A DNA stretch of 64,000 nt from positions 1 to 64,000 of the forward strand of contig CACGAG010000006.1 of NCBI GenBank assembly GCA_902571005.1, given 5' to 3'. The notes beneath the pieces were generated by a model. It was not told where the DNA came from, did not search any database, and was given only the letters and a program-made list of their open reading frames with translations. This DNA comes from an uncultured Pelagibacteraceae bacterium. GTDB taxonomy: Bacteria; Pseudomonadota; Alphaproteobacteria; Pelagibacterales; AG-422-B15. The first letter of the stretch is position 1, and every line of letters begins with the position of its first letter. The position numbers and the translations under genes are program-made. Shown in pieces: positions 4,429 through 57,083 of the stretch.

Positions 4429-4453
4429 AAGGCTTAAGTATTATATCATCTAT

Positions 4454-9039: not shown

Positions 9040-9043
9040 AAGT

Positions 9044-37300: not shown

Positions 37301-38035
37301 CTACTTTTCACCTCTAATTTTTAAAATTTGTTCGTATGCATCATTAATTCTCTGAAAGTTTTCTTTTGCTTTTTGAATAAGGCTTTTATCAGTAATGCCT
37401 TTTGCCCGAACGATATCCGGATGATTTTTGCGAGCTAAATTTCTGTAAACTTTTTTTATTTCTGCAGACGTCTGAGACTTAGAAACACCAAGCACCTTGT
37501 ACGGGTCTTCTTTGACAAATTCAGGTCGAGAATTTCTTAATCTATTGAACGTTGCTTGATCAATTCCAAAAATCTGGCTAACTTTTTTTATATATTTTAG
37601 TTCTGGAGCCGATAAATCATGATCAGCATATCCAATTTCAAAGAGGCCTAATATGACTTGCTCTAACATTTGTGGAGTTCGGTAGAAAGTGTCTCTTAAC
37701 TGCTGAGCGTAAGGTTCAAATCCTGCACTGGTTTGTGCAGCTTCTTTCCATATTGCTCCAACCTGTTTCATATTTTCTTGAGGTATTTTAAATATTTTTT
37801 TAAATTTTCTGATTTCATCGTCAGTGACTCTTCCATCTGCTTTTGCCAACTTTGCACAGAGCACAACAAGCCCTAAAGCATAAACACCTTGATTACTATT
37901 AAAGTTAGCCCCAGGATTTCTAAAGTTTGTTTTCTTTCCAAGAAAGTATGCACCTGCAGTAAATGCAAGTGCGCCCAAAGGGCCTGCTATCATATTCCCC
38001 AAAGAAGCAGCTATTAAATATTTCCAAATGTTCAT
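37301..38035 (-). CDS. DjlA-like membrane-anchored DnaJ/TerB protein
   Basis: 244-aa co-chaperone. An N-terminal hydrophobic segment (residues 5-33) is followed by a TerB-like helical domain (about 48-165; KADGRVTDDEIRKFKK, YADHDLSAPELKYI) and a C-terminal J domain (about 175-240) with the HPD motif at residues 205-207. This order (TM, TerB, J) matches DjlA, which recruits DnaK at the inner membrane. Divergent from the DMT gene at 38083. Confidence 0.92.
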   Translation of the reverse strand: MNIWKYLIAASLGNMIAGPLGALAFTAGAYFLGKKTNFRNPGANFNSNQGVYALGLVVLCAKLAKADGRVTDDEIRKFKKIFKIPQENMKQVGAIWKEAAQTSAGFEPYAQQLRDTFYRTPQMLEQVILGLFEIGYADHDLSAPELKYIKKVSQIFGIDQATFNRLRNSRPEFVKEDPYKVLGVSKSQTSAEIKKVYRNLARKNHPDIVRAKGITDKSLIQKAKENFQRINDAYEQILKIRGEK

Positions 38036-38082
38036 AGGTTTAAAAATTGATTAATGATAATCTAAATTTTAATAAAATCTAT

Positions 38083-38985
38083 ATGAACAGAAATAATATT
38101 AAGTTGGGCGCGCTCTATATGCTGATATCTGTTACAGGTTTCAGCATTATGGATATTGCAGTAAAATGGACAACTGCAGAATATTCAATAGGCATGGTCA
38201 TTGCGGCACGTATGATAGGGGGCTTGATCCCTCTTTTTCTTGTTGTGCCTAAAGAAAGGTGGGGTAATTTTTTTCATACTACTAAACCCGGCTTGATGTT
38301 TATTAGAGCATTCACTGGAACAGCTGCACTTTTTTGTGTTTATGCAAGTCTTCATTATTTACCCCTTGCAACCACTGTAAGTCTCACGTTTGCATCACCA
38401 ATTTTTAGTACGCTGCTGTCAATATTTATACTCGGTGAACTTGTAAGAGTAAGAAGATGGATTGCAATTGTGATTGGTTTTGCTGGAGTCTTGATCATAA
38501 TCAATCCAACATCCAGTGAGTTTAGTGTCTACATGTTATTACCAATTTTATTTTGCGTATTCTTTGCGATGGTATCGATTTCAATTCGTTTATTAAGTGA
38601 GACCGAACCATCCTATTTGATTGCTTGGTATTTTACTTTATTTGGTTTCATTGCATCTTTATTTACAATTCCTTTTGGAGGATGGAAAATACCAGTATCT
38701 TGGTTTGACCTTGGAATTTTAACAGCAGTTGGAATTTTTGGAGGAATTGGAAACCTTGCTCTGACCTCGGCATTTAAACATGCCGAGGTCTCTCTGGTTA
38801 CACCTTTGAAATATCTAAGCTTAATTTATGGAATAATATTTGGTTATATGATTTGGAATGAGATACCTGCCTGGAATACTTATGTCGGTGCTGGATTTAT
38901 TATCTTATCAGCAATATTTATTCTTAGACGTGAGACTGCTCTAAAAAAAGAGATCCAACCAGAAAAATTCTCAATTCAGCGTTAG
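38083..38985 (+). CDS. EamA/DMT-family transporter
   Basis: 300-aa ten-helix inner-membrane transporter with two EamA repeats (LGALYMLISVTGFSIMDIAVKW; then a second half around AVGIFGGIGNLALTSAFKHAEVSLVTPLKYL). An upstream ATG at 38047 is in frame, but MNRNNIKLGALYM at 38083 gives the usual short cytosolic N-terminus; neither start has a good ribosome-binding site. Substrate unknown. Its TAG overlaps the TAA of the opposite gene (TTAG). Confidence 0.87.
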   Translation: MNRNNIKLGALYMLISVTGFSIMDIAVKWTTAEYSIGMVIAARMIGGLIPLFLVVPKERWGNFFHTTKPGLMFIRAFTGTAALFCVYASLHYLPLATTVSLTFASPIFSTLLSIFILGELVRVRRWIAIVIGFAGVLIIINPTSSEFSVYMLLPILFCVFFAMVSISIRLLSETEPSYLIAWYFTLFGFIASLFTIPFGGWKIPVSWFDLGILTAVGIFGGIGNLALTSAFKHAEVSLVTPLKYLSLIYGIIFGYMIWNEIPAWNTYVGAGFIILSAIFILRRETALKKEIQPEKFSIQR

Positions 38986-39746
38986 TTTTTATTTAAAAAA
39001 GTGTCTATACCTTTTTTGGTTTCAGGCATTTGTAGATTTTCAACCATTGCTTTACTTGCAAAATCGTAAGCATCAGAAATTTTCATTGCTGACTGTTTGT
39101 ATAATGTTTCTTTCGTGAGCGCGAGTACTTCAGGTGTATGATCACAAACTTGTTGAGAAAATAGTTCAACCCTTTTATCTAATTCGTCATCTTCTAAATA
39201 TTCGTTGATGAGCCCTGCTTCTTGTGCTCTTTGAGCATTAAGAGGCTGACCGCTCACTAATAATTCCATAACATTTTTTGAAGATATTGCACGGGCTACA
39301 GATACTGACGGTTGATGACACCCAAAATTAAAGTTTATACCACCAAGTGCAAATCTTGCTGATTTAGAACTAAAAACACAATCCATTATACTGACTAATC
39401 CCAGTCCGCCAGCAGTTGCAATACCTCTTACCTTAGCAACAAAAATCTTTGGACTTGTTCTAATTTTCATTAACATTTCAGAGCACTCCGCAAATAGAAG
39501 TTCTTGTGATTTCTTATCATTATTTTTAATCATCTCTTGAACTTCATTAAAACTATGTCCGCTACAAAAGATTTTTTCATTTGAACTTTCAAATATAATA
39601 AGTTTGTGATCTTTGGATTGATTTACACGATCTATCTCCATTTTAATTGCTGACATCATTTCCATGGTCAGGCAATTTGCTGGTGCATCATTAAGAGTGA
39701 GCGTTACAACTTGTCCATCGTCTTTACTAACTAAAATATCCGTCAT
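38982..39746 (-). CDS. Enoyl-CoA hydratase/isomerase-family protein (ECHDC3-like)
   Basis: 254-aa crotonase-fold protein. Oxyanion-hole segments FCSGHSFNEVQEM and RGIATAGGLGLVSIMD are clear. The two catalytic glutamates of true enoyl-CoA hydratase are not at their usual places: GGINFNFGCHQPSV replaces the PEI-type motif, the pattern seen in ECHDC3-like proteins. The acyl-CoA reaction is therefore uncertain. It is last in an operon Rieske-less protein, glutamine-synthetase-like ligase, AlaX, ECH, and overlaps alaX by ATGA. Confidence 0.87.
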   Translation of the reverse strand: MTDILVSKDDGQVVTLTLNDAPANCLTMEMMSAIKMEIDRVNQSKDHKLIIFESSNEKIFCSGHSFNEVQEMIKNNDKKSQELLFAECSEMLMKIRTSPKIFVAKVRGIATAGGLGLVSIMDCVFSSKSARFALGGINFNFGCHQPSVSVARAISSKNVMELLVSGQPLNAQRAQEAGLINEYLEDDELDKRVELFSQQVCDHTPEVLALTKETLYKQSAMKISDAYDFASKAMVENLQMPETKKGIDTFLNKN

Positions 39747-40462
39747 GAACTAAACCTTATATTAATTCGCCTGTTTCTTTTACCTTTATTTTCAATCTTT
39801 CCAATCTCAAGTGGTCCAATTTCTTTTGTAGATTGGCAATGTGTTCCTCCACAACATTGAAGATCGATAATGTTTTCTCCCTCACCAATTTGAACTGTTT
39901 GTACTTTATTATCTATAACTGGAGGTGAAACGGCAGCTCCTTTCGCTAAGTGAGGATTTGATTTAAGTTCATCTCCTGTAATTTGATTTATGATTATGGG
40001 ATAGTCTTTACTAATAATATCCCTAATCTTCTCATTTAATTCTTCTTTATTTAGCATTGATGGATCAACATCAAAGTCTATTCTTGATTTAGTACTTCCA
40101 ACCGATGCGCCTGTTATAAGGGCGTCAACTAAGCTACACAAAATGTGGCAGCTGGAATGCATTTTCATATGAGCATATCTGAGTTCCCAATTGATCTTAA
40201 GTTCAGCAGATTGATTAATTAAACTTTGATCAATAGGGCCGTCAACAATATGCAAAATTTCATTTGGCTTCGATCCTTTTTTAGTGTCTGTAACTTTGAG
40301 AACTTGGTCCTTTAATACAATCTCACCTTGATCTCCAGGTTGTCCACCTGACTCTGCATAAAAAATTGTTCTATCCAATTGTATAATATTTTCTTCAACT
40401 CCAATAATACTGGCTTCTGTTTCTTTTAAGTAACTATCTTGATTGAAAAGAAGGTCAGTCAT
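39743..40462 (-). CDS. Alanyl-tRNA editing protein AlaX-like
   Basis: 239-aa free-standing editing domain related to AlaRS. FYAESGGQPGDQGEI at the N-terminus, zinc site from HMKMHSSCHIL (HxxxH-type) and CCGGTHCQSTKEIG. It hydrolyses Ser- or Gly-tRNA-Ala. The frame is open upstream to 40555, but the start MTDLLFNQD at 40460-40462 is chosen because it lies just after the stop of the ligase gene (4 bp) and matches the family N-terminus. Confidence 0.9.
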   Translation of the reverse strand: MTDLLFNQDSYLKETEASIIGVEENIIQLDRTIFYAESGGQPGDQGEIVLKDQVLKVTDTKKGSKPNEILHIVDGPIDQSLINQSAELKINWELRYAHMKMHSSCHILCSLVDALITGASVGSTKSRIDFDVDPSMLNKEELNEKIRDIISKDYPIIINQITGDELKSNPHLAKGAAVSPPVIDNKVQTVQIGEGENIIDLQCCGGTHCQSTKEIGPLEIGKIENKGKRNRRINIRFSS

Positions 40463-40466
40463 AAAT

Positions 40467-41837
40467 CTATAAATAAAAATCGTATTCTTCTGAAGGTATA
40501 AAACTGTTATCCATATGTTCAAATTCACCTTCTTTGGCTGATACGTATAAATCAAGATACTCTTTTCCTAAATACTTAGATAAAATTTTTGATTCTTGAA
40601 AACGATTTAATGCAGACTCCATATTTCTTGGCATTTCAGGATCAGCAGTCTTATCAGCACCTTCAGTGTTATCAAAACTTACTTGGTCTGTTGGTGAGAG
40701 TTTTTTTGTAAGTCCATAATGAAGTCCAGAAAGGATACAGGCTAAAACAAGATATGGATTTGCATCAGCTGATGCTACCCGGTGTTCAATTCTTTTTGCA
40801 CTATCTGATCCAGCGGGTATTCTCAATGAAACATCTCTTCGATTCCAAGACCAACTTTTATTTACAGGAACAAAATTTCGGGTTTGTATTCTTCGATAAC
40901 CATTTCTATTTGGAATAAATATTGGAAATGAGTCATAAAAAGTTTCTTGAAAACCAGCTAAAGCATTTTTTAACTTATCATTTCCGTAACGATTTTTAGT
41001 TGCAAAAATATTTTTTCCATCATCATCGTACACTGAAATATGCAGGTGCATTCCATTTCCAGTCTCCTCAAGAAATGGCTTTGCCATAAATGTTGCTTCA
41101 AACCCATGCTTTGCAGTTGTTTCTTTTATTATTCTTCTTAACATTGCTGCATCATCCGCTGCTTTAAGCAGATCACCGGTATGCTTTAAATTAATTTCAT
41201 ACTGGCCAGCAGCAAATTCACTTGAAGCTGTTGTTGCAGGGATATCTTGAATTTTACAGTTCTCGTTAATTTCATTAAATAAATCCCCAAACATATCAAG
41301 ATCAGGAATTCCATATACATGAGTTTTACTTGCACCTAATGCAGGAACTGGCTTGCCTTCCTCATTTCTTTTCTTATCCAACAAATAAAACTCTAATTCA
41401 AATGCCACTACTGGATTTAAGCCGGTGCCTTTGAATTTATTCATTACTTTTTCTAAAATATTTCTTGGATCAACTTCCGCCGGATTTTCTATTACACCCC
41501 ATTTTTCCTGTTCTTTTCTCATAGAAATTAGTACTTGAAGAACCTTGCTATCCCAAGGGACGGGCTTTATGGAATTTTTAACGGGCATTAAAACCCCATC
41601 TGGATCTCCGTCAGTCCAACCAAGATTCATCGTGTTGGTTACGCCACCGAGGACATCTAAATAAAATGCTGAAAAAGGTAACAATACACCATCTGAAAAA
41701 ATTTTATCTGCCTCTAGTACTGGAAATCTTTTTCCCCTCACATATCCACAGAGGTCTGTAAATATTGCGTCTACATATTGGATATTATGATGACGATTAA
41801 GCACTTCATCAAATTCTGATTGTGTTGCAAGTTCCAT
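40467..41837 (-). CDS. Glutamine-synthetase-family ligase (gamma-glutamylpolyamine synthetase-like)
   Basis: 456-aa GS-fold enzyme, ATP-dependent gamma-glutamylation of an amine. VAFELEFYLLD metal site, GNGMHLHISVYDDDGKNIF, RRIQTRNFVPVNKSWSWNRRDVSLRIPA and RIEHRVASADANPYLVLA. The N-terminal VDAIFTDLCGYVRGKRFP matches the PuuA branch rather than GlnA, and the GlnA adenylylation segment is not evident. Amine candidates are putrescine, other polyamines or methylamine-type substrates; context (polyamine ABC transporter, PuuB-like and PuuD-like enzymes nearby) favours polyamine. It is preceded by the Rieske-less oxygenase homologue (18 bp). Confidence 0.85.
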   Translation of the reverse strand: MELATQSEFDEVLNRHHNIQYVDAIFTDLCGYVRGKRFPVLEADKIFSDGVLLPFSAFYLDVLGGVTNTMNLGWTDGDPDGVLMPVKNSIKPVPWDSKVLQVLISMRKEQEKWGVIENPAEVDPRNILEKVMNKFKGTGLNPVVAFELEFYLLDKKRNEEGKPVPALGASKTHVYGIPDLDMFGDLFNEINENCKIQDIPATTASSEFAAGQYEINLKHTGDLLKAADDAAMLRRIIKETTAKHGFEATFMAKPFLEETGNGMHLHISVYDDDGKNIFATKNRYGNDKLKNALAGFQETFYDSFPIFIPNRNGYRRIQTRNFVPVNKSWSWNRRDVSLRIPAGSDSAKRIEHRVASADANPYLVLACILSGLHYGLTKKLSPTDQVSFDNTEGADKTADPEMPRNMESALNRFQESKILSKYLGKEYLDLYVSAKEGEFEHMDNSFIPSEEYDFYL

Positions 41838-41855
41838 ATAGGTATCGAATTAAGA

Positions 41856-42950
41856 TTAGACTAAGTCGTTCAGGTGTGTCTGTAAATGATTAAGGTAAAA
41901 TTTCTGATATTGAACTAAGCTCGTCTCTAAATCCCCATATTTGCCAGGCTGATAGGACCTGCTTTCAATTCCCTTTTGATTCATTTCACATAACTGGGAA
42001 TCTTCAGTAGAAGTTTGGTCCCACAAAAAAATCATTTTATCAACATCAACTTCCGCATCTTTATGAGTTACCCAATATTGGGTCACTACTGTTTTATTTT
42101 GACTAATTGGTGAGAATAAAAAAAGTATCACAAATTCGTTATTTGCAACAAAGCTGTTAAATGGGCTGAAACCAATTGCAGTATAACCATTGTCAGCACC
42201 AATCTCCCTAAAATCACCCATCAATTTTGAACAAGAATAACTGCCATCCATTGTTTCTGATGCAATACCTTCAGGTAAAGGTGTGCGCTCTGCAATTCTA
42301 AAATATTTTGAGTCATGTTCACTGAACTCTCCAACAAATAAACCCCTTTTTAAAGTTTGTTTTGTCCACTCTTTAATACGTTTTGTAAGTTTAGGGGCCT
42401 CAATCCCCGAACCAACACCTGCCCCATAAGAATTGCAATAATCTTCACCATGCACACTTAGATAATCTTTGTGTGTAAATTCGCCTCCCCAGCAATGAGC
42501 GCATTCTTTAAAATTATGAATTGTAGCTAAATGTGAAGCATTAAAAATAAAATCTTTTTGAAAAGCAATCTTACCATCATTCAGTCCATGTATTTTGATG
42601 TATGGTTCAAGTGGTTTAATGAATTCATCAAATGAATAGGGAGAGTTTGATAAATTGATAAATACTAAACTCTCATACACTTTTAAATGACACTTAATAT
42701 TTGGATCAGATGCGGAAATTGAAAGTTGATTATCATCTGTTTTTTTTATCTCTATAAATCCTTTATTTAAGTTGTATGTAAAGATATCGTTTTGATTAAA
42801 GTACGAGAGATGGGTTAGAAAAACCCATTGTTTTTTGAAAATTGCTTCATAACTTGCATGAAATATCTCTGAATTTGTAAAGAAAAGTTGATCCATTCCT
42901 GCGTGTGGATCTTGGCTCTGTATTAAACTTTTGATTTTTTCACTTATCAT
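41856..42950 (-). CDS. Rieske-oxygenase alpha-subunit homologue lacking the Rieske domain
   Basis: 364-aa protein aligning along its length with the canonical Rieske oxygenase at 49936-51174: QWVFLTHLS/QWLMVDHIS, VYESLVFINL/IYEGLIFINL, FDEFIKPL/FDEFIEPL, RTPLPEG/RTPIGNG, WDQTSTED/WDVTTAHD. The stretch holding CxH and CxxH in the homologue is deleted (IEIKKTDDNQLSISASDP bridges directly to CHLKVYES), about 45 residues, so no [2Fe-2S] centre can form. The mononuclear-iron motif is altered too: ECYHCPTAH becomes ECAHCWGGEFTH, which moves the second His three residues away. First gene of its operon, divergent from the amidase. It may act as a non-catalytic partner or a re-purposed SRPBCC-fold enzyme. 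Confidence 0.85.
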   Translation of the reverse strand: MISEKIKSLIQSQDPHAGMDQLFFTNSEIFHASYEAIFKKQWVFLTHLSYFNQNDIFTYNLNKGFIEIKKTDDNQLSISASDPNIKCHLKVYESLVFINLSNSPYSFDEFIKPLEPYIKIHGLNDGKIAFQKDFIFNASHLATIHNFKECAHCWGGEFTHKDYLSVHGEDYCNSYGAGVGSGIEAPKLTKRIKEWTKQTLKRGLFVGEFSEHDSKYFRIAERTPLPEGIASETMDGSYSCSKLMGDFREIGADNGYTAIGFSPFNSFVANNEFVILFLFSPISQNKTVVTQYWVTHKDAEVDVDKMIFLWDQTSTEDSQLCEMNQKGIESRSYQPGKYGDLETSLVQYQKFYLNHLQTHLNDLV

Positions 42951-43002
42951 AAATTATTTTCAATATATTTTAATAATTGTTAAATTTAAATAAAAAATCA
43001 TC

Positions 43003-44496
43003 ATGAATGATACTGATATTGAAATTTGTTATTTATCCGCTTCAGATACATTAAAGAAGTACAAAGAAAAAAAATTATCTCCAGTTGAAGTCCTGTCGGC
43101 TGTAATTAAAAGAATAGAAACAGTTAATCCTAAGATAAATGCATTTAATTATCTTGATTTTGATAAGTCTATAGAACTTGCAAAAGAGTCTGAGAAAAAA
43201 TTTTCCAATAGTAATGATGTTCTGCCTCTTGAAGGATTACCTTTAGCAATAAAAGACGAAGTGAATATAAAAGGACAACCAAATCGTAATGGTTGCTTAC
43301 TTCTCAAGAATAATATCGCAAAGAAAACTGATATTGATGTTGAAACAATAGTCAATTCTGGCGCGATACTTCACGGTCGCACAACCAATCCAGAATTTTC
43401 TCTCACTTCTTTTTGTCACTCAAAACTAAATGGCGTAACAAGAAACCCTTGGAACTTAGATATGACACCTGGTGGATCAAGTGGAGGCAGTGCGGCTGCA
43501 TTAGCTTCAGGTTGTGCAATGTTGACAACAGGAAGTGACATTGGAGGTTCAATAAGAATACCAGCAGGCGCATGTGGAGTAGTTGGATACAAGCCACCTC
43601 ATGGAAGAAATGCTCAAAGTTATCCATTCAATCATGACCCTTACTGTGTAACAGGACCACTCGCAAGAACAGTGGTTGATACTGCAATGATGCAAAACAT
43701 TATGTGTGGACCAAACCAAAAAGACATAACATCTTTACGTCCAAAAAAAACATTACCATTAAATTACGAAAATATTAAAAATTGGAAAATAGCTTATTCA
43801 TTAGACTTAGGATTTTTTGAGATTGATAAGGAAGTGGAACAGAATACGCTGACGGCATTAAAAAAATTTGAAAGTCTTGGATGTCAGGTCACAGAGGTGA
43901 AACTTAATTGGAAAAAAGATGAAGTAAATTCGGTTTGCTTTAGTCATTACGCAAATTCTTTTTATAAAGAAATTTCTGAGCTTTCAGATTCTGAAAAAGA
44001 GCAGCTGAGTGATTACACAAAAATGTTCAGTGGTGTTACTGAAATGCACATTGACTCCTTAAAAAATAATAAAAAAATTTATCACGAACAAATTGGTGCT
44101 CACTTGGGTTATGGCGTTGAAGAAAGTGCAATGGTGACTGGAAAAATGTATGAAGAAATTGGCCCAATATTGGAAAAATATGATTTATTTATTTGCCCTA
44201 CCAATGCCTTACCAGCAATCAAAGCAGATATTGATATAGTTAACGAACGCGTCATTATTAATGGAAAAGAACAAGAATGTGCTGACTTTGCATGGTGCAT
44301 GTCTCACCCATTCAATATGTTGGGCAAACTGCCAGTCCTTTCTGTACCCTCTGGCTTTAGTTCAAATCAAGTGCCTACCGGCATTCAGATTATTTCACGC
44401 TCCTACAGTGATGAACTAGTATTTCAAGGAGGATACAACTACGAAATTGTCGATCCATGGCTAAATAATGCGAAAAATCGGCCAGTTTTTGATTGA
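43003..44496 (+). CDS. Amidase-signature family hydrolase
   Basis: 497-aa amidase. Catalytic Ser-cisSer-Lys set visible: Lys84 in LAIKDEVNIKG, cis-Ser159 in PGGSSGGSAAAL, and nucleophile Ser183 in SDIGGSIRIPAGACG. Length normal; cytosolic. Together with the neighbouring amine genes it may release ammonia or an amine from an amide; the substrate is not predictable. Its promoter must lie in the 52-bp gap shared with the divergent Rieske-less gene. Confidence 0.9.
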   Translation: MNDTDIEICYLSASDTLKKYKEKKLSPVEVLSAVIKRIETVNPKINAFNYLDFDKSIELAKESEKKFSNSNDVLPLEGLPLAIKDEVNIKGQPNRNGCLLLKNNIAKKTDIDVETIVNSGAILHGRTTNPEFSLTSFCHSKLNGVTRNPWNLDMTPGGSSGGSAAALASGCAMLTTGSDIGGSIRIPAGACGVVGYKPPHGRNAQSYPFNHDPYCVTGPLARTVVDTAMMQNIMCGPNQKDITSLRPKKTLPLNYENIKNWKIAYSLDLGFFEIDKEVEQNTLTALKKFESLGCQVTEVKLNWKKDEVNSVCFSHYANSFYKEISELSDSEKEQLSDYTKMFSGVTEMHIDSLKNNKKIYHEQIGAHLGYGVEESAMVTGKMYEEIGPILEKYDLFICPTNALPAIKADIDIVNERVIINGKEQECADFAWCMSHPFNMLGKLPVLSVPSGFSSNQVPTGIQIISRSYSDELVFQGGYNYEIVDPWLNNAKNRPVFD

Positions 44497-44503
44497 TATA
44501 GTA

Positions 44504-44531
44504 TTGACCAGTTTATCTAGAGGTGTACAAT
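44504..44531 (+). promoter_or_regulatory. Strong sigma70-type promoter of the binding-protein gene
   Basis: TTGACC (44504-44509), 16-bp spacer, TACAAT (44526-44531; five of six -10 bases). The following leader carries an A-rich tract with AAGGA (44553-44557) 9 nt before the ATG. One of the best promoter plus ribosome-site combinations in the window, fitting the high expression expected of a periplasmic binding protein. Confidence 0.6.
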
Positions 44532-44566
44532 TTTTTCAGATTAAACAAAAAAAAGGATAATTAATT

Positions 44567-45691
44567 ATGCCAAAATACGATGTAACTAAAAAGTTCATTG
44601 ATAACTTGCGAGAAGGCAAGGTAAGTCGTAGGTCTTTTGTAAAGGGTATGGGTGCAGCTGGTGTTCTAGGTTTAACATCCGGTCTTGTTCCTGCTACTAA
44701 TGCATTTGCATCTACTGGACGTGCTTTTGTTTGGGGCGGTTATGATGACGATGGTCTATTTGGACCATATGTTGAAGCTCACGGATCACCAGAATATTCA
44801 ACTTTTGGGGATGCGGAGGAAGGTCTTCAAAAATTAAAAGCTGGTTTTGAAGTTGATGTTGCTTGGCCTTGCCAAGGTGAAATTGCACGATGGGTAAGAG
44901 CTGGTGTTATTCAGCCACTTGACACATCAAGATTAGAAAACTGGGGAGATATGTTCCCAGAAGTTAGAGACTTACCAAGTGGTATAGTTAACGGACAAAA
45001 CTATTTTGCACCGGTTGACTGGGGAGACACAAGTATTGTGTACAACACTGATAAAGTCACTTGGATGCAACCAGGTAATGAAAGTCTATATCTCTTAGAA
45101 GATCCAAGAATGAAAGGTAAAGTTGGAGTACTTGATAGTGCTGCAGATAGTTTATTCTTGATGATGCATTATCTAGGAACAGACATTAAGGACATTAACC
45201 AATTAAATAAAGCGGCTATTGATCAAGGTATCAATAAGTTCCGTGAACTCAGAGATAATGGAAACATTAGGACATTCTTCGCTGACTCTGCTTCTATTGC
45301 TGAAGCAATTGGAAACGAAGAGGTCTGGGCTTCAATTTGTTGGAATGAAACATCATGGGAGACTGGTTACCCAATGATGCGTCCTGTTGAAGGTACAATG
45401 ACATGGGCATGCGGACTTGCAATTGCGACAGGTGCAAATCTTGATGTTGCTTATGACATGATTAACGCTGCAACTAGTGCCGAAACTTCAGCTTACCTAT
45501 TAAGCGAATGGGGTTATGGACACTCTAACCAAAAAGGCTTTGGCTCACTTACTGCAGATGAGCTAGCTGAAAGAGGAGTTGCTCCAAACCCAGCTGAACA
45601 CTTAGCGAATGGTGCGTTCTCAGTAATGCCACCAGATGATGTAACGGATTACATGGAAGCTCAGTGGGCAGAAATGACTGCTGGCGGTTAA
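44567..45691 (+). CDS. Tat-exported PotD-like substrate-binding protein
   Basis: 374-aa periplasmic solute-binding protein of the spermidine/putrescine type (SBP_bac family). The twin-arginine signal SRRSFVKGMGAAG starts at residue 20 (Arg21-Arg22), with cleavage near TNAFA. The mature part has FVWGGYDDDGLF, INPL-like DTSRLENWGDMFPEVRDL and the aromatic-rich pocket segments SICWNETSWETGYP and GTMTWACGL. It should serve the PotBCA-like transporter encoded convergently next to it, although it is on the opposite strand with its own promoter and terminator. The ligand may be a polyamine or another cationic amine. Confidence 0.9.
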   Translation: MPKYDVTKKFIDNLREGKVSRRSFVKGMGAAGVLGLTSGLVPATNAFASTGRAFVWGGYDDDGLFGPYVEAHGSPEYSTFGDAEEGLQKLKAGFEVDVAWPCQGEIARWVRAGVIQPLDTSRLENWGDMFPEVRDLPSGIVNGQNYFAPVDWGDTSIVYNTDKVTWMQPGNESLYLLEDPRMKGKVGVLDSAADSLFLMMHYLGTDIKDINQLNKAAIDQGINKFRELRDNGNIRTFFADSASIAEAIGNEEVWASICWNETSWETGYPMMRPVEGTMTWACGLAIATGANLDVAYDMINAATSAETSAYLLSEWGYGHSNQKGFGSLTADELAERGVAPNPAEHLANGAFSVMPPDDVTDYMEAQWAEMTAGG

Positions 45692-45712
45692 TCTTAAATT
45701 TGTGAAATCATT

Positions 45713-45751
45713 AATAGCCTGTTCTCTTATTGAGAGCAGGCTATTTTTTTT
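45713..45751 (+). terminator. Rho-independent terminator of the binding-protein gene
   Basis: A 14-bp stem with one T-G pair (45713-45726 with 45732-45745), loop TTATT, followed by an eight-T run (45744-45751). The right arm and T-run overlap the stop codon and last codons of the convergent potA-like gene. The opposite strand has no T-run after the hairpin, so it should act only rightward. Confidence 0.85.
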
Positions 45752-46823
45752 GCAGTAAGCTAATGTCTTCTAAACTGATACTTATAAAACAAGTATTATT
45801 GTCAAATGACTGATTATCAAAATGCTGGGATGATACAGTTATTACTTTATTTATTCCTGATACCTCAACATAAAATCTTGTCATTTCCCCTAAGTAGGAA
45901 GTCTGATTTATTTTTGCTTCTAAGCAAATATCCCAATCAGATTTATCTCTAGAAATCATCATTGACTCTGGTCGAACACTACAAACAACATCAGATGAAT
46001 TCTCTGGAATATTTAGGTTATTTTTGACTTTAAAATCACCAAGATCTTCAATCGCAACATTAATTTGATCGCCATCTTTTGACTTTGTAGATGCTTTTAA
46101 AAAGTTTGTTTCTCCAATGAAATCACTTACAAAAATATTTTCTGGGTTCTTATAAAGTTCATTTGGAGCAGAAAGTTGTTGTATCTTGCCTTCACTCATA
46201 ACAGCAACTCTATCAGACATGCTGATGGCTTCTTGTTGATCATGAGTTACAAATACAAAGGTAATTCCAATTTCTTTCTGTAGCGTTCTCAATTCAAGTT
46301 GCATTTCGTCTCTTAATTTTTTATCCAATGCTCCAAGAGGCTCATCCAATAAAAGAACTTTTGGTTGTCTAACTAAAGCTCTTGCTAACGCAACACGCTG
46401 TCTTTGCCCACCAGATAATTGCCCACTGAATCTTTCCTCATAACCCTCAAGCTTTACAAGGGCTAAAACATCATCGACTCTTTTTTTAATGTCGTCATCA
46501 GTCAAACCAAGTTTTCTTAATCCAAATTTTATATTTTGCTCAACATTAATGTGAGGAAATATGGCGTAGTTTTGAAATACCATATTTGTAGGTCTTTTAT
46601 CAGGAGGCAATGCGGTGATATCACTGCCATCGATTAATAAATTACCATTTGTTGGATATTCAAATCCTGCTAACAATCGAAGTAAAGTTGTCTTTCCACA
46701 TCCTGATGGACCCAACAAAGAAAAGAACTCTCCTTCTTTAATTGAAAAAGAGACGTCATCAACTGCTTTTACATTTCCAAAATGTTTTGAAATTCCATTT
46801 ATCTGAATAAAATTTTCGTTCAT
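45741..46823 (-). CDS. Polyamine-type ABC transporter ATPase (PotA-like)
   Basis: 360-aa ATPase. Walker A GPSGCGKTT (residues 38-46), Q-loop VFQNYAIFPH, signature QLSGGQRQRVALARAL, Walker B LLLDEPLGALD, switch His in VFVTHDQQEA; a C-terminal TOBE regulatory domain from about residue 230. Third component of the PotB-C-A set, 5 bp after the permease. Its end carries the binding protein's terminator. Confidence 0.94.
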   Translation of the reverse strand: MNENFIQINGISKHFGNVKAVDDVSFSIKEGEFFSLLGPSGCGKTTLLRLLAGFEYPTNGNLLIDGSDITALPPDKRPTNMVFQNYAIFPHINVEQNIKFGLRKLGLTDDDIKKRVDDVLALVKLEGYEERFSGQLSGGQRQRVALARALVRQPKVLLLDEPLGALDKKLRDEMQLELRTLQKEIGITFVFVTHDQQEAISMSDRVAVMSEGKIQQLSAPNELYKNPENIFVSDFIGETNFLKASTKSKDGDQINVAIEDLGDFKVKNNLNIPENSSDVVCSVRPESMMISRDKSDWDICLEAKINQTSYLGEMTRFYVEVSGINKVITVSSQHFDNQSFDNNTCFISISLEDISLLQKK

Positions 46824-46828
46824 ATTTT

Positions 46829-47638
46829 TTATAATTTAATAGCTATATCCTTTTTTTCTTTGCCTTGTCCAACATTTCTCAACCAGAATGCTAACAAAAC
46901 AATAAAAGTAGTAAACACAATTATCACCGCTCCCAAAGCAAGTACATGTGGGAGTTTTTTCACAAACCGCATTTGATTCCACATATACATTGGTAAAGTT
47001 GCATCACTGCCAGATAGAAAGAATGCCAGAATAAATTCATCAAAGGATATAATAAAACTTAGTAATAAAGCTGCTATTATACCTGGCAAATAAAGAGGTA
47101 GTGATACTCTGTAAAATGTTCCCCATGCATTTTCCCCTAAATCACGTGAAGCTTCTTCTAAAGAAAAGTCAAAACCTTCTATTCGCGCAATCAATATCAA
47201 CATTGCAAATGGAGTACAAAACAATATGTGTCCTATTGTTACTGGAACCAGACCCAATGGAAAACCGAGGTTGATCCATATAATTAATATTGATACTGCT
47301 AAAATAATTTCTGGTATTAAAAACGGCATCATTATGGCTCCGTAAGAAACATTCTGACCCCTAAATTTGTATCTAACAAATGCCTTTGCAGCGAGAAGTG
47401 CAATTGCTGTACTTACAACGCTTGCAACAACGCCGACTTTAACGCTCGCCCATAAAGCTTTATGTAAGTTTCGCTTTGACCACATTTCCTCATAATGATC
47501 TGTGGTAAATCCTGCTAATGGAAATGACATATAATTTGCATCATTAAAACTGAAAATCGGTAAAAAAAGAACCGGTATATAGAGAAAACCAAAATATATT
47601 AATGTGTAAACTAGCAGTGAATTGTTTTTTTCATTCAT
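46829..47638 (-). CDS. Polyamine-type ABC transporter permease (PotC-like)
   Basis: 269-aa inner-membrane permease with six helices and the EAA loop LEEASRDLGENAWGTFYRVSLPLYLPGI that contacts the ATPase. Typical PotC features, including PIFSFND near the first helix. Three bases separate it from the PotB-like gene. Confidence 0.93.
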   Translation of the reverse strand: MNEKNNSLLVYTLIYFGFLYIPVLFLPIFSFNDANYMSFPLAGFTTDHYEEMWSKRNLHKALWASVKVGVVASVVSTAIALLAAKAFVRYKFRGQNVSYGAIMMPFLIPEIILAVSILIIWINLGFPLGLVPVTIGHILFCTPFAMLILIARIEGFDFSLEEASRDLGENAWGTFYRVSLPLYLPGIIAALLLSFIISFDEFILAFFLSGSDATLPMYMWNQMRFVKKLPHVLALGAVIIVFTTFIVLLAFWLRNVGQGKEKKDIAIKL

Positions 47639-47641
47639 GAT

Positions 47642-48526
47642 TTAAGAAAGCCTCTGTGTAAGTCTTTTTGTTGTGTATGAGACAATTGCTGTTATGAGAA
47701 TAACGGTCGTCAGCATGATTGTAGCTGATGCCGCTCCAAGTGGTATATTGTTTATTTTTCCAAAATAAGCTTGGATCATATTTGATAACATTCTTCCCTC
47801 AGTGCCCCCAATTAAGGCAGGCGTTACATAATCACCTACAGTTGGAATAAATATTATTAAAATCGCACCAATGACACCTGGCAAGGAAAGAGGAAATGTC
47901 ACTTTCCAAAATACTTCAAATTTTGATAAACCTAGATCTCTTGCAGCTTCAATATATGAAAAGTCTATTTTCTCAAGAGACACGTAAAGTGGCAATAAAG
48001 CAAATGCTGCCCAAGCATGTGTTAGAGTAATAATAACAGCTTCCTCCGAGTACATAAGAAATGTAAGAGGCTCACTAATAATGCCTGCACCTAATAATGT
48101 TGAATTGAAAACTCCTTTGGTGCCCAGTATGATTTTCCAAGAAAATACTCTTAATAGGTATGAAGTCCAAAAAGGTAAGGTTAATAAAACTAACCATAAC
48201 ATTTTGTTTTTTTTCACATAAAAAGCGATGTAATAGCATACAGGGTAAGCTGTTAGAAGAGTGATCAGTGTTACAATGAATGATATTTTAACCGACTTAA
48301 TGAGAAGCGAGACAAGCAAACTTTTTTCAAAAAAGTCAATGTATCGCTGAAATGTTGGAGTGAAATCAATCTCCATCATACTTACTTGTGTAAAAGAGCT
48401 AAAACTTAGCATTAATGCCATAGGAATAAGCATTACGAGAATAATTAAAAATAATGCAGGAGACAGTAATGAATATGCTTTTGCATTATCACTCTTAGAG
48501 TATAAATTTCGCCAAGCTTGAAACAT
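47642..48526 (-). CDS. Polyamine-type ABC transporter permease (PotB-like)
   Basis: 294-aa permease with six helices. EAA loop YIEAARDLGLSKFEVFWKVTFPLSLPG; IPTVGDYVTPALIGG and LPFWTSYLLRVFSWKIIL are PotB-family marks. It follows the flavoprotein oxidase gene by 36 bp, so uptake genes seem to be cotranscribed with the catabolic genes upstream. Confidence 0.93.
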   Translation of the reverse strand: MFQAWRNLYSKSDNAKAYSLLSPALFLIILVMLIPMALMLSFSSFTQVSMMEIDFTPTFQRYIDFFEKSLLVSLLIKSVKISFIVTLITLLTAYPVCYYIAFYVKKNKMLWLVLLTLPFWTSYLLRVFSWKIILGTKGVFNSTLLGAGIISEPLTFLMYSEEAVIITLTHAWAAFALLPLYVSLEKIDFSYIEAARDLGLSKFEVFWKVTFPLSLPGVIGAILIIFIPTVGDYVTPALIGGTEGRMLSNMIQAYFGKINNIPLGAASATIMLTTVILITAIVSYTTKRLTQRLS

Positions 48527-48562
48527 AAGAAAATTTTAATTTATATAAATAATAGATGCAAT

Positions 48563-49918
48563 TTATATTTCTTTTTTGCTTCTATCCGTGAGATTAGCAT
48601 ACCACAAATATAATCTTAAATACCAAAGTCTTAAAAATCCAAATGGGATTTTAGGTGATAGGCCCTGATAGACTTTTGAAATGTTTGTTTCCCCACTATT
48701 TGACTCGTAAATCATTTCAGCTAATTTTTTACCACAATACACAGTTGTATTATTACCGTTAGCTTGATAGCCGTATGAAAAATATACAGACTTATCTTCT
48801 TCTAATGCACCAAATGCTGGAACAAAGTCACGAGTCATAACAACAGTGCCTCTCCAATAATGATCAATATCGACCTTGTCCCAATTTGGAAATACCCCAC
48901 GAAATTTTTTTGTCATGAATTCTTGCATTCTCTCTGCGCTCTTTTCATCACCGTAGGTGTCGCCTCTTGTTCCAAATAACATCCTGTTTGAAGGCATTCT
49001 TCTATAATAATACAAGATCTCTCTAGAGTTGCAGATTGGATTAAGAGTTTTATAGTTTTGTAGTTTAAATTCATCTTCTGACATTTCTCTAGTGACAATT
49101 ATATTAGATAAAACAGGCATCATTCTATTTGCAAAACTTGGATGGAGAGACTCATCTGTGTATCCATTTGTTGCAACAACAACCTTATTTGCAGTAATCG
49201 ACCCACTATCTGTAATTAATTTATGTGAACCGTTTCTTTCCCATTTTTTCACTCTAGAAAAACTATGAAGTTTCGCTCCCACATCTACAGTTGCTGATGC
49301 AAAACCATTCATAAAAGCCATTGGGTTCATTGCAAATCCTGCTTCAGTAAAAACAGCTCCAAATTGTTCTGTTGATTGATGTCCAACTTCATCAAACTCC
49401 TCTTTGGGTATCCACTTGGTGTTAATACCAAAATATTTTTTAAGATCATTGCCCCACTCCTTTAGTTCCTCACTGCTATCAGGGTGATGAGCAACATCTA
49501 GATTGCCTGTGCCAGTTTTTTCACATTCAATATTATTTTCCGAAATAAGTGAGGATAAAAGTTCAACACCTTCAATTTGAGAAGAAAAAAATTTCTTAGT
49601 TTCATCCAGGCCAAACTTTGCAATCAGTTGGTTGACCGATAGTTTTGTTGCAGGCAAACAACAAAAGCCAGCATTCCTTGCACTGCTTGCAAATCCAAAA
49701 TGCCCTGCCTCTAGTAATCTTACGTCACCGCTGTAATTTTTTGCAATGTGATAAGCTGTACTTATTCCAGTAAAGCCGCCACCTATTACACAAACATCAC
49801 AGCTTTCATCAGTTGTGAGCTTAGGATATTTGTCTTGTTCTATTTGACTGACTTTTTCCCAATAACTTTTTACTGGCTTATTAACGTCGTAAATATCTTT
49901 GTTATAAAGTTGCTTCAT
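48563..49918 (-). CDS. FAD-dependent amine oxidase/dehydrogenase (PuuB/OrdL-like, DAO family)
   Basis: 451-aa flavoprotein. FAD-binding Rossmann motif CDVCVIGGGFTGISTAYHIA near residue 38, then LLEAGHFGFASSARNAGFCC, and the C-terminal FSYGYQANGNNTTVYCGKKLAEMI that closes the flavin site. The N-terminus (SYWEK...CDVCVIGGG) resembles gamma-glutamylputrescine oxidase. It would oxidise a C-N bond to imine or aldehyde. The frame extends to 49966, but MKQLYNKDIYD at 49916-49918 is chosen because the upstream codons overlap the Rieske oxygenase gene. Confidence 0.88.
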   Translation of the reverse strand: MKQLYNKDIYDVNKPVKSYWEKVSQIEQDKYPKLTTDESCDVCVIGGGFTGISTAYHIAKNYSGDVRLLEAGHFGFASSARNAGFCCLPATKLSVNQLIAKFGLDETKKFFSSQIEGVELLSSLISENNIECEKTGTGNLDVAHHPDSSEELKEWGNDLKKYFGINTKWIPKEEFDEVGHQSTEQFGAVFTEAGFAMNPMAFMNGFASATVDVGAKLHSFSRVKKWERNGSHKLITDSGSITANKVVVATNGYTDESLHPSFANRMMPVLSNIIVTREMSEDEFKLQNYKTLNPICNSREILYYYRRMPSNRMLFGTRGDTYGDEKSAERMQEFMTKKFRGVFPNWDKVDIDHYWRGTVVMTRDFVPAFGALEEDKSVYFSYGYQANGNNTTVYCGKKLAEMIYESNSGETNISKVYQGLSPKIPFGFLRLWYLRLYLWYANLTDRSKKEI

Positions 49919-49935
49919 ACTCTCTCGCTTAGAGA

Positions 49936-51174
49936 TTATGGTAACTGCATGTTGGTAAAATACCAATTATAAAAGTAAGTTACCGCTGACTCATTTTCAG
50001 ATAAAACTCCAGGTTTAAAAGACTGTGATAGAAGGCCTTCCTGGTTATTTTCAATTATTGTTGTATCATGCGCCGTAGTAACATCCCAAATATAGCTTAC
50101 TTCCTCGGGCTTAAAGTCTTTATTCTCCTCAGCTTCCTCGTTTACGAGCCATATGAGTTCCACTTCAGACTCTAGAAGTGAGATGGGTTTAAAAATAAAC
50201 ATGACGCCAAAATCATTTGTGAAATAACAACAGCCAAATGGATTAAAGCTTACTTGGGTTAATCCTCCATCAAAATCTTTAAACTGTCCCATTAGTGAAG
50301 AAGCTGGCTTTCCATCTTTGGTTTGTGATAAGTTTCCGTTTCCAATTGGAGTTCTGTCAACATATCTGTTTAAGCCTTTTTTTAATCCTTCTTCTGTTTC
50401 AAGATAAACCTCAGACGGAGTTCCATTTTTTTTACATTCCTCGACCCAAGGTTTAATTTTATTTAGATATTCATCAGTCTCTTTTTGAGGTGCAGTACCT
50501 ATTCCAGCACCCATTGCGACAACCCAGTCTTTATCCTGTACTGCACAAAGCTCTGGATGTGCTGTAGGACAGTGATAGCACTCCTGAAAATTTTCAAGAA
50601 CTAATTTAAAATTTGCATGAGTTGGATATTTTTTTCTTATCGCAATTTTTGACTTACTCGTCTGATGAAATTCCATCATTTCTTTTAGAGGCTCAATGAA
50701 TTCATCAAAATTCATTGGTTCTTCTAATGATAAGTTAATAAATATTAATCCTTCATAAATTTTAAAATGGCACTCTCTAAGACCCCACTCTTCTTTTTTA
50801 AAATCCTCCGGCATAAAACGTGCAGCTTTAAGCTCACCTTCTGCTGAAAAACTCCAAGCATGATAGGGACACACTAAAAGTTTTTTTGATCCCTCTTCAT
50901 CTAAACAAATTCTTGATCCTCGATGAGTGCAAACATTATAAAATGCTCTTACTTCATTGTCTCTTCCTCTAATAACTATGATGGACTCCTTTTCGGCATC
51001 AAAAACAAAATAATCACCTGGATTAGGAATACGACTTATGTGATCTACCATTAACCACTGTTTGAAATAAATTCGCTTCATCTCTTCGGAAAAAATATTC
51101 GAATCTGTATAAAAGTCTTGGGGTAATGTTTTACCCTCCTGATAGTTTTTTAGCAGATGGTTAAACTCAAGCAT
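49936..51174 (-). CDS. Rieske non-heme iron oxygenase alpha subunit
   Basis: 412-aa aromatic-ring-hydroxylase/GbcA-type oxygenase. Rieske [2Fe-2S] ligands CTH (Cys82, His84) and CPYH (Cys102, His105). The mononuclear iron motif is ENFQECYHCPTAHPE (His201, His206), with Asp in WDVTTAHD near the C-terminus. The ECYHC form is typical of members acting on quaternary ammonium compounds (glycine betaine, choline, carnitine, stachydrine), where they N-demethylate or cleave. No dedicated reductase gene is adjacent; the electron donor must be elsewhere. Downstream of the class III aminotransferase by 4 bp. Confidence 0.92.
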   Translation of the reverse strand: MLEFNHLLKNYQEGKTLPQDFYTDSNIFSEEMKRIYFKQWLMVDHISRIPNPGDYFVFDAEKESIIVIRGRDNEVRAFYNVCTHRGSRICLDEEGSKKLLVCPYHAWSFSAEGELKAARFMPEDFKKEEWGLRECHFKIYEGLIFINLSLEEPMNFDEFIEPLKEMMEFHQTSKSKIAIRKKYPTHANFKLVLENFQECYHCPTAHPELCAVQDKDWVVAMGAGIGTAPQKETDEYLNKIKPWVEECKKNGTPSEVYLETEEGLKKGLNRYVDRTPIGNGNLSQTKDGKPASSLMGQFKDFDGGLTQVSFNPFGCCYFTNDFGVMFIFKPISLLESEVELIWLVNEEAEENKDFKPEEVSYIWDVTTAHDTTIIENNQEGLLSQSFKPGVLSENESAVTYFYNWYFTNMQLP

Positions 51175-51178
51175 TTAT

Positions 51179-52576
51179 TTAAGATGCAGACCAAAGGCCT
51201 TCTTTCTTGATGTCATCTGTAGCTAACTCAATTCCTTTTCTAAGTATACTTACGAGATCATCTATCTGTTCCTTAGTGATGATCAAAGAAGGAGACATGA
51301 CACACGTATTAAATAGCGGTCTAACAATTAAACCAAGATTTTGACAATGAGAATTGATGCGAGAAGCGATCTCGTATTGTAAATTCAGAGGATCTTTTTT
51401 TTCTTTACTGATTACACATTCAACAGCAGCCATTAATCCCTCACCACGTACATCGCCAACAATCGGTAGATCAATTAATTCACTTAATTTAGATTGAAAA
51501 TAAGGGCCGACTTCCTGTACATGTTCAAGGAGGTTATTTTTTTCAATATAATCAAGTGTTGCTGTAGCTGCTGCCATGCTCACTGGGTGACCCGAGTCAG
51601 TAAATCCATTTGAAAATATAACTTTTTCTTTATTATCAAGTTGAGACATAAGCTTTTCAGAAATAACAACCGCACCACAAGGTACGTATCCTGAAGTAAT
51701 CCCTTTTGCTAAAAGGATGATATCAGGTTCTAAATCGAAATAATTTTCTGAAGCGAATATATGACCTAACCTTCCAAATCCGGTTACTATCTCATCAGAA
51801 ATATAAATAACATTGTACTTAGTACAAATTTCTCTTGTCTTTTTGTGATATCCTTTAGGAGGAACAATTACTCCGCCTGATGCTAGGATTGGCTCTGCAA
51901 TAAATGCCGCGACCTTATCTTGACCAAGTTCTAAAATTTTATTTTCTAACTCTTTAACTTTTAAATCACAGAATTCTTCATCACTTAAATCGTCTGGTTT
52001 TTTAAACGGATTTGGCGCAGACAAATGATGAACTAAGTTATCTGCAAAATCAAAGTTGTTTTTATCTCTTTCTTTACCTGAACATGAAGCCCCTAAAAAT
52101 GTACTACCGTGATATGCATCATGACGTGAGATAATTTGTTTCTTATCTCTTAACCCACGAACGTTATTATAAAACATTACAAATCTTAATGCAGAGTCTA
52201 CTGCTGAAGATCCTCCGGACGTGAAAAATACTCTTTTAAGATCACCGGGCGCATATTTAACAAGTCGTGAAGCATAATTATATGCAATCTCAGTGGACTC
52301 CGTGAATGGGCTGGCGTAGGGCATTCTTGTAATCTGATTATAAACAGCATCAGCAATTTCTTTTACGCCATGTCCTACGTTAACATTCCACATTCCTCCA
52401 GGACCATCAATAAGTTGTCTTCCTGTTTGATCGTAAAGATAAATTCCTTTTGACTTATCAATGAATGTCCTGCTGTCTTCACCACGATACTCAAGATACT
52501 GCCATGGGTATAGAATTCTATCGTCGAGAGTATTAAGGAGATCTTTTTTTTCGGGAATCGAAGTTGATTTGGGCAT
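51179..52576 (-). CDS. Class III PLP aminotransferase (first copy)
   Basis: 465-aa omega-type transaminase. GPGGMWNVNVGHG, the PLP phosphate segment FFTSGGSSAVDSALRF, YHGSTFLGAS, ISDEIVTGFGRLG, and PLP lysine in LLAKGITSGYVPCGA. Acts on a terminal amine of a diamine or amino acid with an oxo-acid acceptor. First gene of the operon that continues through Rieske oxygenase, flavoprotein oxidase and PotBCA. The start codon lies only 5 bp from a -10 box, so its mRNA may be leaderless. Confidence 0.92.
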   Translation of the reverse strand: MPKSTSIPEKKDLLNTLDDRILYPWQYLEYRGEDSRTFIDKSKGIYLYDQTGRQLIDGPGGMWNVNVGHGVKEIADAVYNQITRMPYASPFTESTEIAYNYASRLVKYAPGDLKRVFFTSGGSSAVDSALRFVMFYNNVRGLRDKKQIISRHDAYHGSTFLGASCSGKERDKNNFDFADNLVHHLSAPNPFKKPDDLSDEEFCDLKVKELENKILELGQDKVAAFIAEPILASGGVIVPPKGYHKKTREICTKYNVIYISDEIVTGFGRLGHIFASENYFDLEPDIILLAKGITSGYVPCGAVVISEKLMSQLDNKEKVIFSNGFTDSGHPVSMAAATATLDYIEKNNLLEHVQEVGPYFQSKLSELIDLPIVGDVRGEGLMAAVECVISKEKKDPLNLQYEIASRINSHCQNLGLIVRPLFNTCVMSPSLIITKEQIDDLVSILRKGIELATDDIKKEGLWSAS

Positions 52577-52581
52577 ATTGG

Positions 52582-52611
52582 AGTATAGCCTATATTGAAC
52601 AGCTGTTCAAT
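52582..52611 (-). promoter_or_regulatory. Promoter with overlapping palindromic operator (aminotransferase-Rieske-Pot operon)
   Basis: A perfect 18-bp palindrome, ATTGAACAGCTGTTCAAT, occupies 52594-52611. On the minus strand its first arm supplies a -35 box (TTGAAC, 52605-52610), followed by a 17-bp spacer and TATACT (52582-52587, five of six -10 bases). A repressor bound here would block RNA polymerase. The same arrangement occurs at 57009-57038. TTGAAC-type palindromes are the kind recognised by BetI and related TetR proteins. Confidence 0.7.
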
Positions 52612-52622
52612 AATTGAATTTT

Positions 52623-52647
52623 AAAAAAACAGCCTATTTTTGGCTAT
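52623..52647 (-). terminator. Terminator after the GcvT-like gene
   Basis: On the minus strand ATAGCC-AAAAATA-GGCTGT (six pairs, one T-G) followed by a run of T residues (52623-52629). The hairpin overlaps the stop codon of the GcvT-like gene at 52644. Short stem, but well placed between the two leftward operons. Confidence 0.6.
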
Positions 52648-53843: not shown

Positions 53844-53845
53844 AT

Positions 53846-56985: not shown

Positions 56986-57008
56986 AAAATAAAGAATATT
57001 TAGGAATC

Positions 57009-57051
57009 ATGATAATAAAAATTGAATGATTATTCAATACAAAACTATCTT
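57009..57051. promoter_or_regulatory. Divergent promoters sharing one palindromic operator (flavoprotein operon and tetR)
   Basis: The near-palindrome ATTGAAT-GATT-ATTCAAT lies at 57021-57038. Leftward promoter: TTGAAT (57032-57037), 17-bp spacer, TATCAT (57009-57014; five of six). Rightward promoter: TTGAAT (57022-57027), 18-bp spacer, TATCTT (57046-57051; four of six). One bound dimer would cover both -35 boxes. A further half-site ATTCAAT (57077-57083) abuts the regulator's ATG. It matches the site at 52594-52611 in arm sequence and spacing. Confidence 0.7.
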
Positions 57052-57083
57052 TAATAGTTATCTTTGTGTATTGTTTATTCAAT

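Follow-up and report, generated by a model that had tools for sequence, protein, structure and literature searches.

The window, meaning the whole stretch of 64,000 nucleotides analysed here, carries a conserved gene for a Rieske oxygenase paralogue that lacks all four ligands of the [2Fe-2S] cluster. The analysis shows its conservation, its co-occurrence with a full-length paralogue in the same cluster, the candidate ligands and bridging residue in its sequence and its predicted fold; a mixed oligomer, an electron route, iron binding and a substrate are inferred for this short protein. With a little less than even confidence, we propose that it acts as an alpha-prime subunit: it would share a mixed oligomer with the full paralogue and be fed by the partner's cluster.

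An oxygenase gene with an internal deletion

The features of the two paralogues are as follows.

41856-42950, minus strand: Rieske-less oxygenase paralogue, 364 residues, ATG start (BLASTP, Pfam, relatives' copies)
42690-42743, minus strand: internal deletion site, codons 70-87 (alignment; codons counted from the start at 42950)
42504-42506, minus strand: Glu149, bridging-glutamate candidate aligned with CntA Glu205 (invariant in 41 of 41 rows with letters)
42471-42497, minus strand: changed iron loop HCWGGEFTH, codons 152-160, with candidate ligands His152, Glu157 and His160 (alignments)
42000-42002, minus strand: Asp317, candidate third iron ligand (42 of 42 rows; conserved in aligned oxygenases)
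49936-51174, minus strand: full-length oxygenase paralogue and proposed partner, 412 residues (BLASTP, Pfam)
50860-50931, minus strand: long-paralogue codons 82-105, which include the four Rieske cluster ligands (found in all 29 rows with letters there, out of 31)

The first-pass annotation had described an intact gene, similar to the canonical oxygenase on both sides of a gap of about 45 residues that contains all four cluster ligands. BLASTP aligned the short and long proteins on both sides of the gap, with 28% identity and an E value of 1e-51. In the alignment, the columns from K70 to C87 of the short protein hold 18 residues against 67 in the long one, so the deletion was confirmed but its size had to be revised to a net loss of 49. 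The missing stretch is the one that contains C82, H84, C102 and H105 of the long protein. Pfam found Rieske and Ring_hydroxyl_A domains in the long protein and Ring_hydroxyl_A only in the short one. No Rieske domain (PF00355) was detected in the window's short protein or in any of the 13 copies scanned, all of which contained the Ring_hydroxyl_A catalytic domain. The CxH...CxxH motif was absent from all 42 short-protein rows, window included. The best NCBIfam model for the short protein was glycine betaine monooxygenase GbcA, at 140.5 bits, far under the cut-off of 670. A defence-protein identity was rejected, the short protein having no match in PADLOC.

The gene was also said to head an operon. 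Gene order agrees with this: the gene ends 18 bases before a glutamine-synthetase-like gene, and 52 bases separate its start from a divergent amidase gene (43003). A promoter did not emerge, as five promoter-like sites were found upstream against 2.9 plus or minus 2.0 expected, which is not above chance; operon status is therefore read from gene order. No Rfam match reached the gathering score in 38000-57500.

An assembly deletion, or the lack of any similar gene in related genomes, had been named as observations that would overturn the finding, and neither was encountered. The short gene was present in 31 of 35 same-genus relatives, in none of 23 relatives from another Pelagibacterales family, and in 43 of the 53 genomes of its own Pelagibacterales family. 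We collected 41 further loci, all from Pelagibacteraceae or Pelagibacterales, with best segments 67-99% identical and no inner stops. Four of these loci are cut by contig ends; the uncut proteins are 363 or 364 residues long. The dN/dS ratio (Nei-Gojobori) had a median of 0.065 and a maximum of 0.15 over 209 non-independent pairs with dS of 0.1-1, and one pair under this range gave 0.25. For the long gene the median was 0.040 (136 pairs, likewise not independent). The short gene is under purifying selection and, as the two medians indicate, somewhat less constrained than the long gene. We therefore rejected an assembly error or a decaying pseudogene as virtually impossible: the intact copies in relatives and the low dN/dS oppose it, and nothing was found in its favour. 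The host bacteria, which are of the marine SAR11 type, have genomes of about 1.3 Mb and belong to a group that sheds superfluous genes. A Rieske-less subunit that is conserved in such genomes probably has a function.

The long paralogue and the surrounding cluster

It had been proposed to search for homologues lacking CxH/CxxH and to ask whether they co-occur with a full-length paralogue. Among the 53 genomes of the family, 35 contained both genes, 8 the short gene only, 4 the long gene only and 6 neither. The six genomes with neither gene are 54-77% complete, and in all 12 single-gene genomes the contig ends before the expected place of the other gene, about 8 kb away. Both genomes of genus g9 in the set are of the long-only kind, on contigs without room for the short gene. 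In G007, G018 and G088 the two genes are on different contigs, where their spacing is not visible. In all 41 loci, the gene directly downstream of the short one is the glutamine-synthetase-like gene; the long gene is at the corresponding place in 30 of them, and the remaining 11 end before reaching it. Gene linkage alone could explain this co-occurrence, which is thus no proof of protein contact.

The other genes of the cluster are listed below; L076 is a divergent locus of genome G060, described in the next section.

40467-41837, minus strand: glutamine-synthetase-like gene, directly downstream of the short gene (Pfam)
43003-44496, plus strand: amidase, divergent neighbour of the short gene (Pfam; missing at the corresponding place in L076)
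44567-48526: solute-binding protein (plus strand) and PotA/PotC/PotB-like ABC transporter genes (minus strand) (Pfam, NCBIfam)
48563-49966, minus strand: DAO-type FAD oxidase (ORF extending to 49966; for locus comparison the ATG at 49918 was taken as the start)
51179-56985, minus strand: class III aminotransferase, GcvT-like protein and two FAD oxidoreductases (domain scans)

The solute-binding protein has a weak TAT signal, and the GcvT-like protein is related to the C-terminal part of TMAO demethylase. As judged from its predicted products, the cluster suits the breakdown of an N-methylated or polyamine-like compound.

Several side observations were made in this region. An AlaX-type alanyl-tRNA editing protein (39743-40555; NCBIfam AlaXM, below cut-off) is encoded inside the catabolic cluster; its gene is missing in L050, L053, L055 and L076, L053 ending soon after the preceding gene. 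Near the cluster, 61971-62735 encodes a Peptidase C26 protein, which we take to be PuuD-like; such a gene alongside the glutamine-synthetase-like and DAO genes is reminiscent of the gamma-glutamyl-polyamine pathway. In L045, the aminotransferase upstream of the long gene matches two separate frames and looks broken or mis-assembled.

Candidate iron site, predicted fold and a divergent copy

In CntA, according to PMC7948474, the iron is held by His208, His213 and Asp323, while Glu205 forms the bridge to the Rieske cluster of the neighbour, and enzymes mutated there are inactive. The Cys206/Cys209 pair matters for activity, and Cys-x-x-Cys is given as a group V motif in PMC10952381. Glu149, Cys150, His152, Cys153 and His160 of the short protein align with CntA Glu205, Cys206, His208, Cys209 and His213, respectively. 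By sequence alignment, both the bridging-carboxylate position (Glu149) and the group V cysteine pair beside the iron site (Cys150/Cys153) are retained in 41 of 41 rows with letters. Asp317 aligns with the conserved Asp of other oxygenases, the direct alignment with CntA being weak at that end. These six residues are common to the long proteins and to at least 90% of 22 other alphaproteobacterial oxygenases.

The first-pass annotation had also noted a changed iron motif and a distal Asp that remains, and the alignments bear out both points. Glu149, Cys150, His152, Cys153, Trp154, Gly155, Gly156, Glu157, Phe158 and His160 are invariant in all 41 short rows with letters, and Asp317 in all 42 rows; within the loop WGGEF(T/S)H, six of seven positions do not vary. 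All 41 rows with letters have an aromatic residue, Phe147, where CntA has Tyr203, but Stc2 has Asn there in the alignment. Compared with the long paralogue and the short copy of G060, the loop has three extra residues, which puts His152 and His160 8 apart against 5 in the canonical motif, in a region predicted with low confidence. If the gap is left out, Glu157, five residues after His152, takes the place of the second His and is therefore an alternative candidate ligand; the residues downstream of the loop align better with His160 in that role. Within the protein, conservation is among the highest in the iron region and among the lowest in the Rieske-domain remnant (residues 61-100). The invariance of Glu149 may be structural rather than functional.

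The fold was predicted with AlphaFold. A first run with 10 sequences gave a poor active site (pLDDT 70.9), and a second, single-chain run with 39 sequences was used (pLDDT 92.5, pTM 0.91). The only ten-residue block under 70 was 151-160, the iron loop, with a mean of 58. The best matches among solved structures were 3n0q (Z 41.0, rmsd 2.4 over 346 residues) and stachydrine demethylase 3vca (Z 40.8, rmsd 2.3 over 342); CntA 6y9c gave Z 26.9 and rmsd 3.0 over 293 residues. Thus, in the predicted model the oxygenase fold is intact except at the iron loop, and the matches indicate that the deletion leaves the whole catalytic domain and the base strands of the Rieske domain.

A divergent short copy was found in G060 (L076, contig C15, 20000-36000; gene at 3487-4566). 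It has no Pfam Rieske match and carries a normal iron motif, ECYHCGPAH, in a cluster without the amidase and AlaX genes of the window. Trees were built without the deleted and inserted columns, the second one adding an outside oxygenase from G1048. The G060 short protein grouped with the other short proteins, with support of 99/95 in the first tree and 98/94 in the second, and the long proteins formed their sister group. Grouping it with the long proteins instead was disfavoured but not rejected (p-AU 0.064, tested on one of the two trees). The branch carrying the origin of the new loop is long, with 1.12 and 1.19 changes per column in the two trees. The G060 long gene is the first to branch off within the long group, so the whole G060 cluster is a divergent version. 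As G060 shares its genus code with G082 and G088, whose short copies have the usual new loop, a transfer of the cluster is possible. Because this Rieske-less copy with a normal iron motif groups with the short proteins, a single loss of the Rieske domain probably preceded the change of the iron loop.

Electron supply and comparison with known systems

Possible electron suppliers were sought in G000 (91% complete) and in G059, G019 and G060 (98-100%). In each, the Rieske matches were full oxygenases plus one protein of 169-183 residues. Besides the long paralogue, G000, G059 and G019 each gave a second full oxygenase, in a 387-residue frame, and a 169- to 174-residue frame that is probably the bc1 Rieske protein; G060 gave one more full oxygenase. 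The four genomes showed neither a Rieske-reductase fusion nor a stand-alone Rieske ferredoxin. The NAD_binding_1 (PF00175) reductase domain was found in none of them despite their full Rieske oxygenases, and in 10 of 14 control genomes. An NdmD-like Rieske supplier was thus sought by both searches without success, and seems to be absent from these four genomes. All four contained a small Fer2 ferredoxin of 112-133 residues, plus a larger frame, of 839 or 693 residues, that matches Fer2.

The search was also extended beyond the family, with profiles tuned to this family, which would miss an unrelated Rieske-less protein such as NdmC. Among 397 genomes of the order (53 of the family), the other 344 gave no match at all at E 1e-10. 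The class set (385 genomes) and the phylum set (398) share members, the window's own genome being in each; at E 1e-20 they gave matches in 42 and 51 other genomes, respectively. The match stretches listed begin at profile position 56 or later, as do those of full-length enzymes. In 29 class loci (L102-L130), the Rieske motif was recognised by pattern in 27 and by reading in L126, L115 being cut by the contig start; among the phylum matches, two oxygenases of G1048 and two of G655 were read. In L143 (G655, contig C1, 18000-34000), from another alphaproteobacterium, two full-length oxygenases stand in tandem at 6764-9430, with PotABC-like genes in the same stretch, a paired but undeleted counterpart of the short/long pair. 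In the titles and abstract openings of open-licence literature on Rieske-domain-free oxygenases, or on SAR11 and Rieske proteins, nothing was recognised as the short protein; one of the phrase searches missed even the NdmC papers and is thus weak evidence of absence.

The first-pass annotation had suggested either a mixed trimer with the canonical subunit or a re-purposed catalytic domain; we take the mixed oligomer as the likelier of the two, and the re-purposed metal site as its main rival. In such oxygenases, electrons pass from one subunit's Rieske cluster to the iron of the next by way of a bridging carboxylate. A clusterless subunit could therefore still accept electrons if a full-length subunit stood beside it. 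The short gene would descend from a group V (quaternary-ammonium type) Rieske oxygenase that was duplicated on the lineage leading to this Pelagibacterales family. A deletion inside the gene would then have removed the cluster-binding part of the Rieske domain, leaving the domain base and the whole catalytic domain. The short protein would form a mixed oligomer with the full paralogue of its own cluster and receive electrons from that paralogue's Rieske cluster through Glu149. It would oxidise a second substrate, or a later intermediate, of one N-methylated or polyamine-like compound.

Purifying selection, co-occurrence in 35 of 53 genomes, the same gene order and the intact predicted fold count for an alpha-prime subunit, as do the Rieske matches in the four genomes, limited to full oxygenases such as the long paralogue and to one small protein each. 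The retained bridging Glu and Cys pair favour electrons in trans, together with the normal iron motif of the Rieske-less G060 copy, which is what would be expected if electrons come from elsewhere. Against it counts the iron loop, three residues longer, wholly changed and predicted at a pLDDT of 58, which makes the active site a candidate one. The poorly conserved Rieske remnant is a further point against it, as in known oxygenase trimers this domain touches the neighbouring subunit; the missing NAD_binding_1 reductase concerns both enzymes. Moreover, the genome's other full oxygenase could be the partner instead of the long paralogue. The changed and then frozen loop also keeps alive a re-purposed, Rieske-independent metalloenzyme with a rebuilt site (candidate ligands His152, Glu157, His160 and Asp317) and no electron relay, the G060-type copy being a relic of the intermediate stage. 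The near-invariant loop, the position of Glu157 and the long branch followed by strong conservation are in line with such an enzyme. We consider it rather unlikely, as the bridging Glu149 and the group V cysteines are retained and His160 fits better as the second His.

A non-catalytic partner, bound to the full oxygenase or modulating it in the manner of beta subunits and with no turnover of its own, would agree with the shared cluster, the changed loop and the lack of a Rieske cluster. A purely structural role needs neither a highly conserved iron region nor candidate ligands, and we hold this to be unlikely. The protein could also be a stand-alone oxygenase with another donor, such as the small Fer2 ferredoxin present in all four genomes, or peroxide. 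No oxygenase of this class is known to take electrons at its iron straight from a plant-type ferredoxin, and the cluster contains no dedicated donor gene. The peroxide shunt is within CntA's ability, according to PMC10952381; still, we regard a stand-alone enzyme as improbable.

By fold, sequence or NCBIfam, the nearest known proteins are CntA, Stc2 (stachydrine demethylase) and GbcA of group V. They share the Cys-x-x-Cys and the bridging Glu with the short protein, but have a Rieske domain and a normal iron loop, whereas the short protein has neither. In the chlorophyllide a oxygenase of Micromonas pusilla, the sites are divided between the two chains. As proposed here, the function of a Rieske oxygenase is spread there over two polypeptides (PMC9615114). 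In contrast, the long partner here keeps both the Rieske and the iron ligands. NdmC, of the 7-methylxanthine N-demethylase NdmCDE of Pseudomonas putida CBB5, is a non-heme iron monooxygenase that resembles the short protein in having no Rieske cluster and in belonging to the same superfamily, and its electrons come in trans (PMC4408171, PMC10380055). The Rieske domain of that system is fused to the reductase NdmD, a fusion unseen in our four genomes, and a GST-like NdmE is needed, whereas a Pfam scan of the cluster proteins here found no GST family. The internal deletion and the changed iron loop are features of the short-protein family, which is set apart from NdmC by description and not by sequence. 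NdmA and NdmB are an example of an alpha3-alpha-prime3 assembly. Such heterohexamers are known for Rieske oxygenases (PMC12445004), but NdmA and NdmB each carry their own Rieske cluster (PMC4408171), unlike the short protein.

Altogether, the short protein fails the defining test of a Rieske oxygenase, the Rieske domain, yet may well work as part of one. With this pair, nature provides a way to test if a subunit can be served by the Rieske cluster of a neighbour that another gene encodes. An apparent series is preserved, from the full enzyme through a Rieske-less form with a normal iron motif to a Rieske-less form with a new loop. Compared with the systems above, what seems to be new is an internally deleted alpha subunit whose own full-length paralogue is the evident Rieske partner, together with a changed, fixed iron loop and an apparent evolutionary intermediate.
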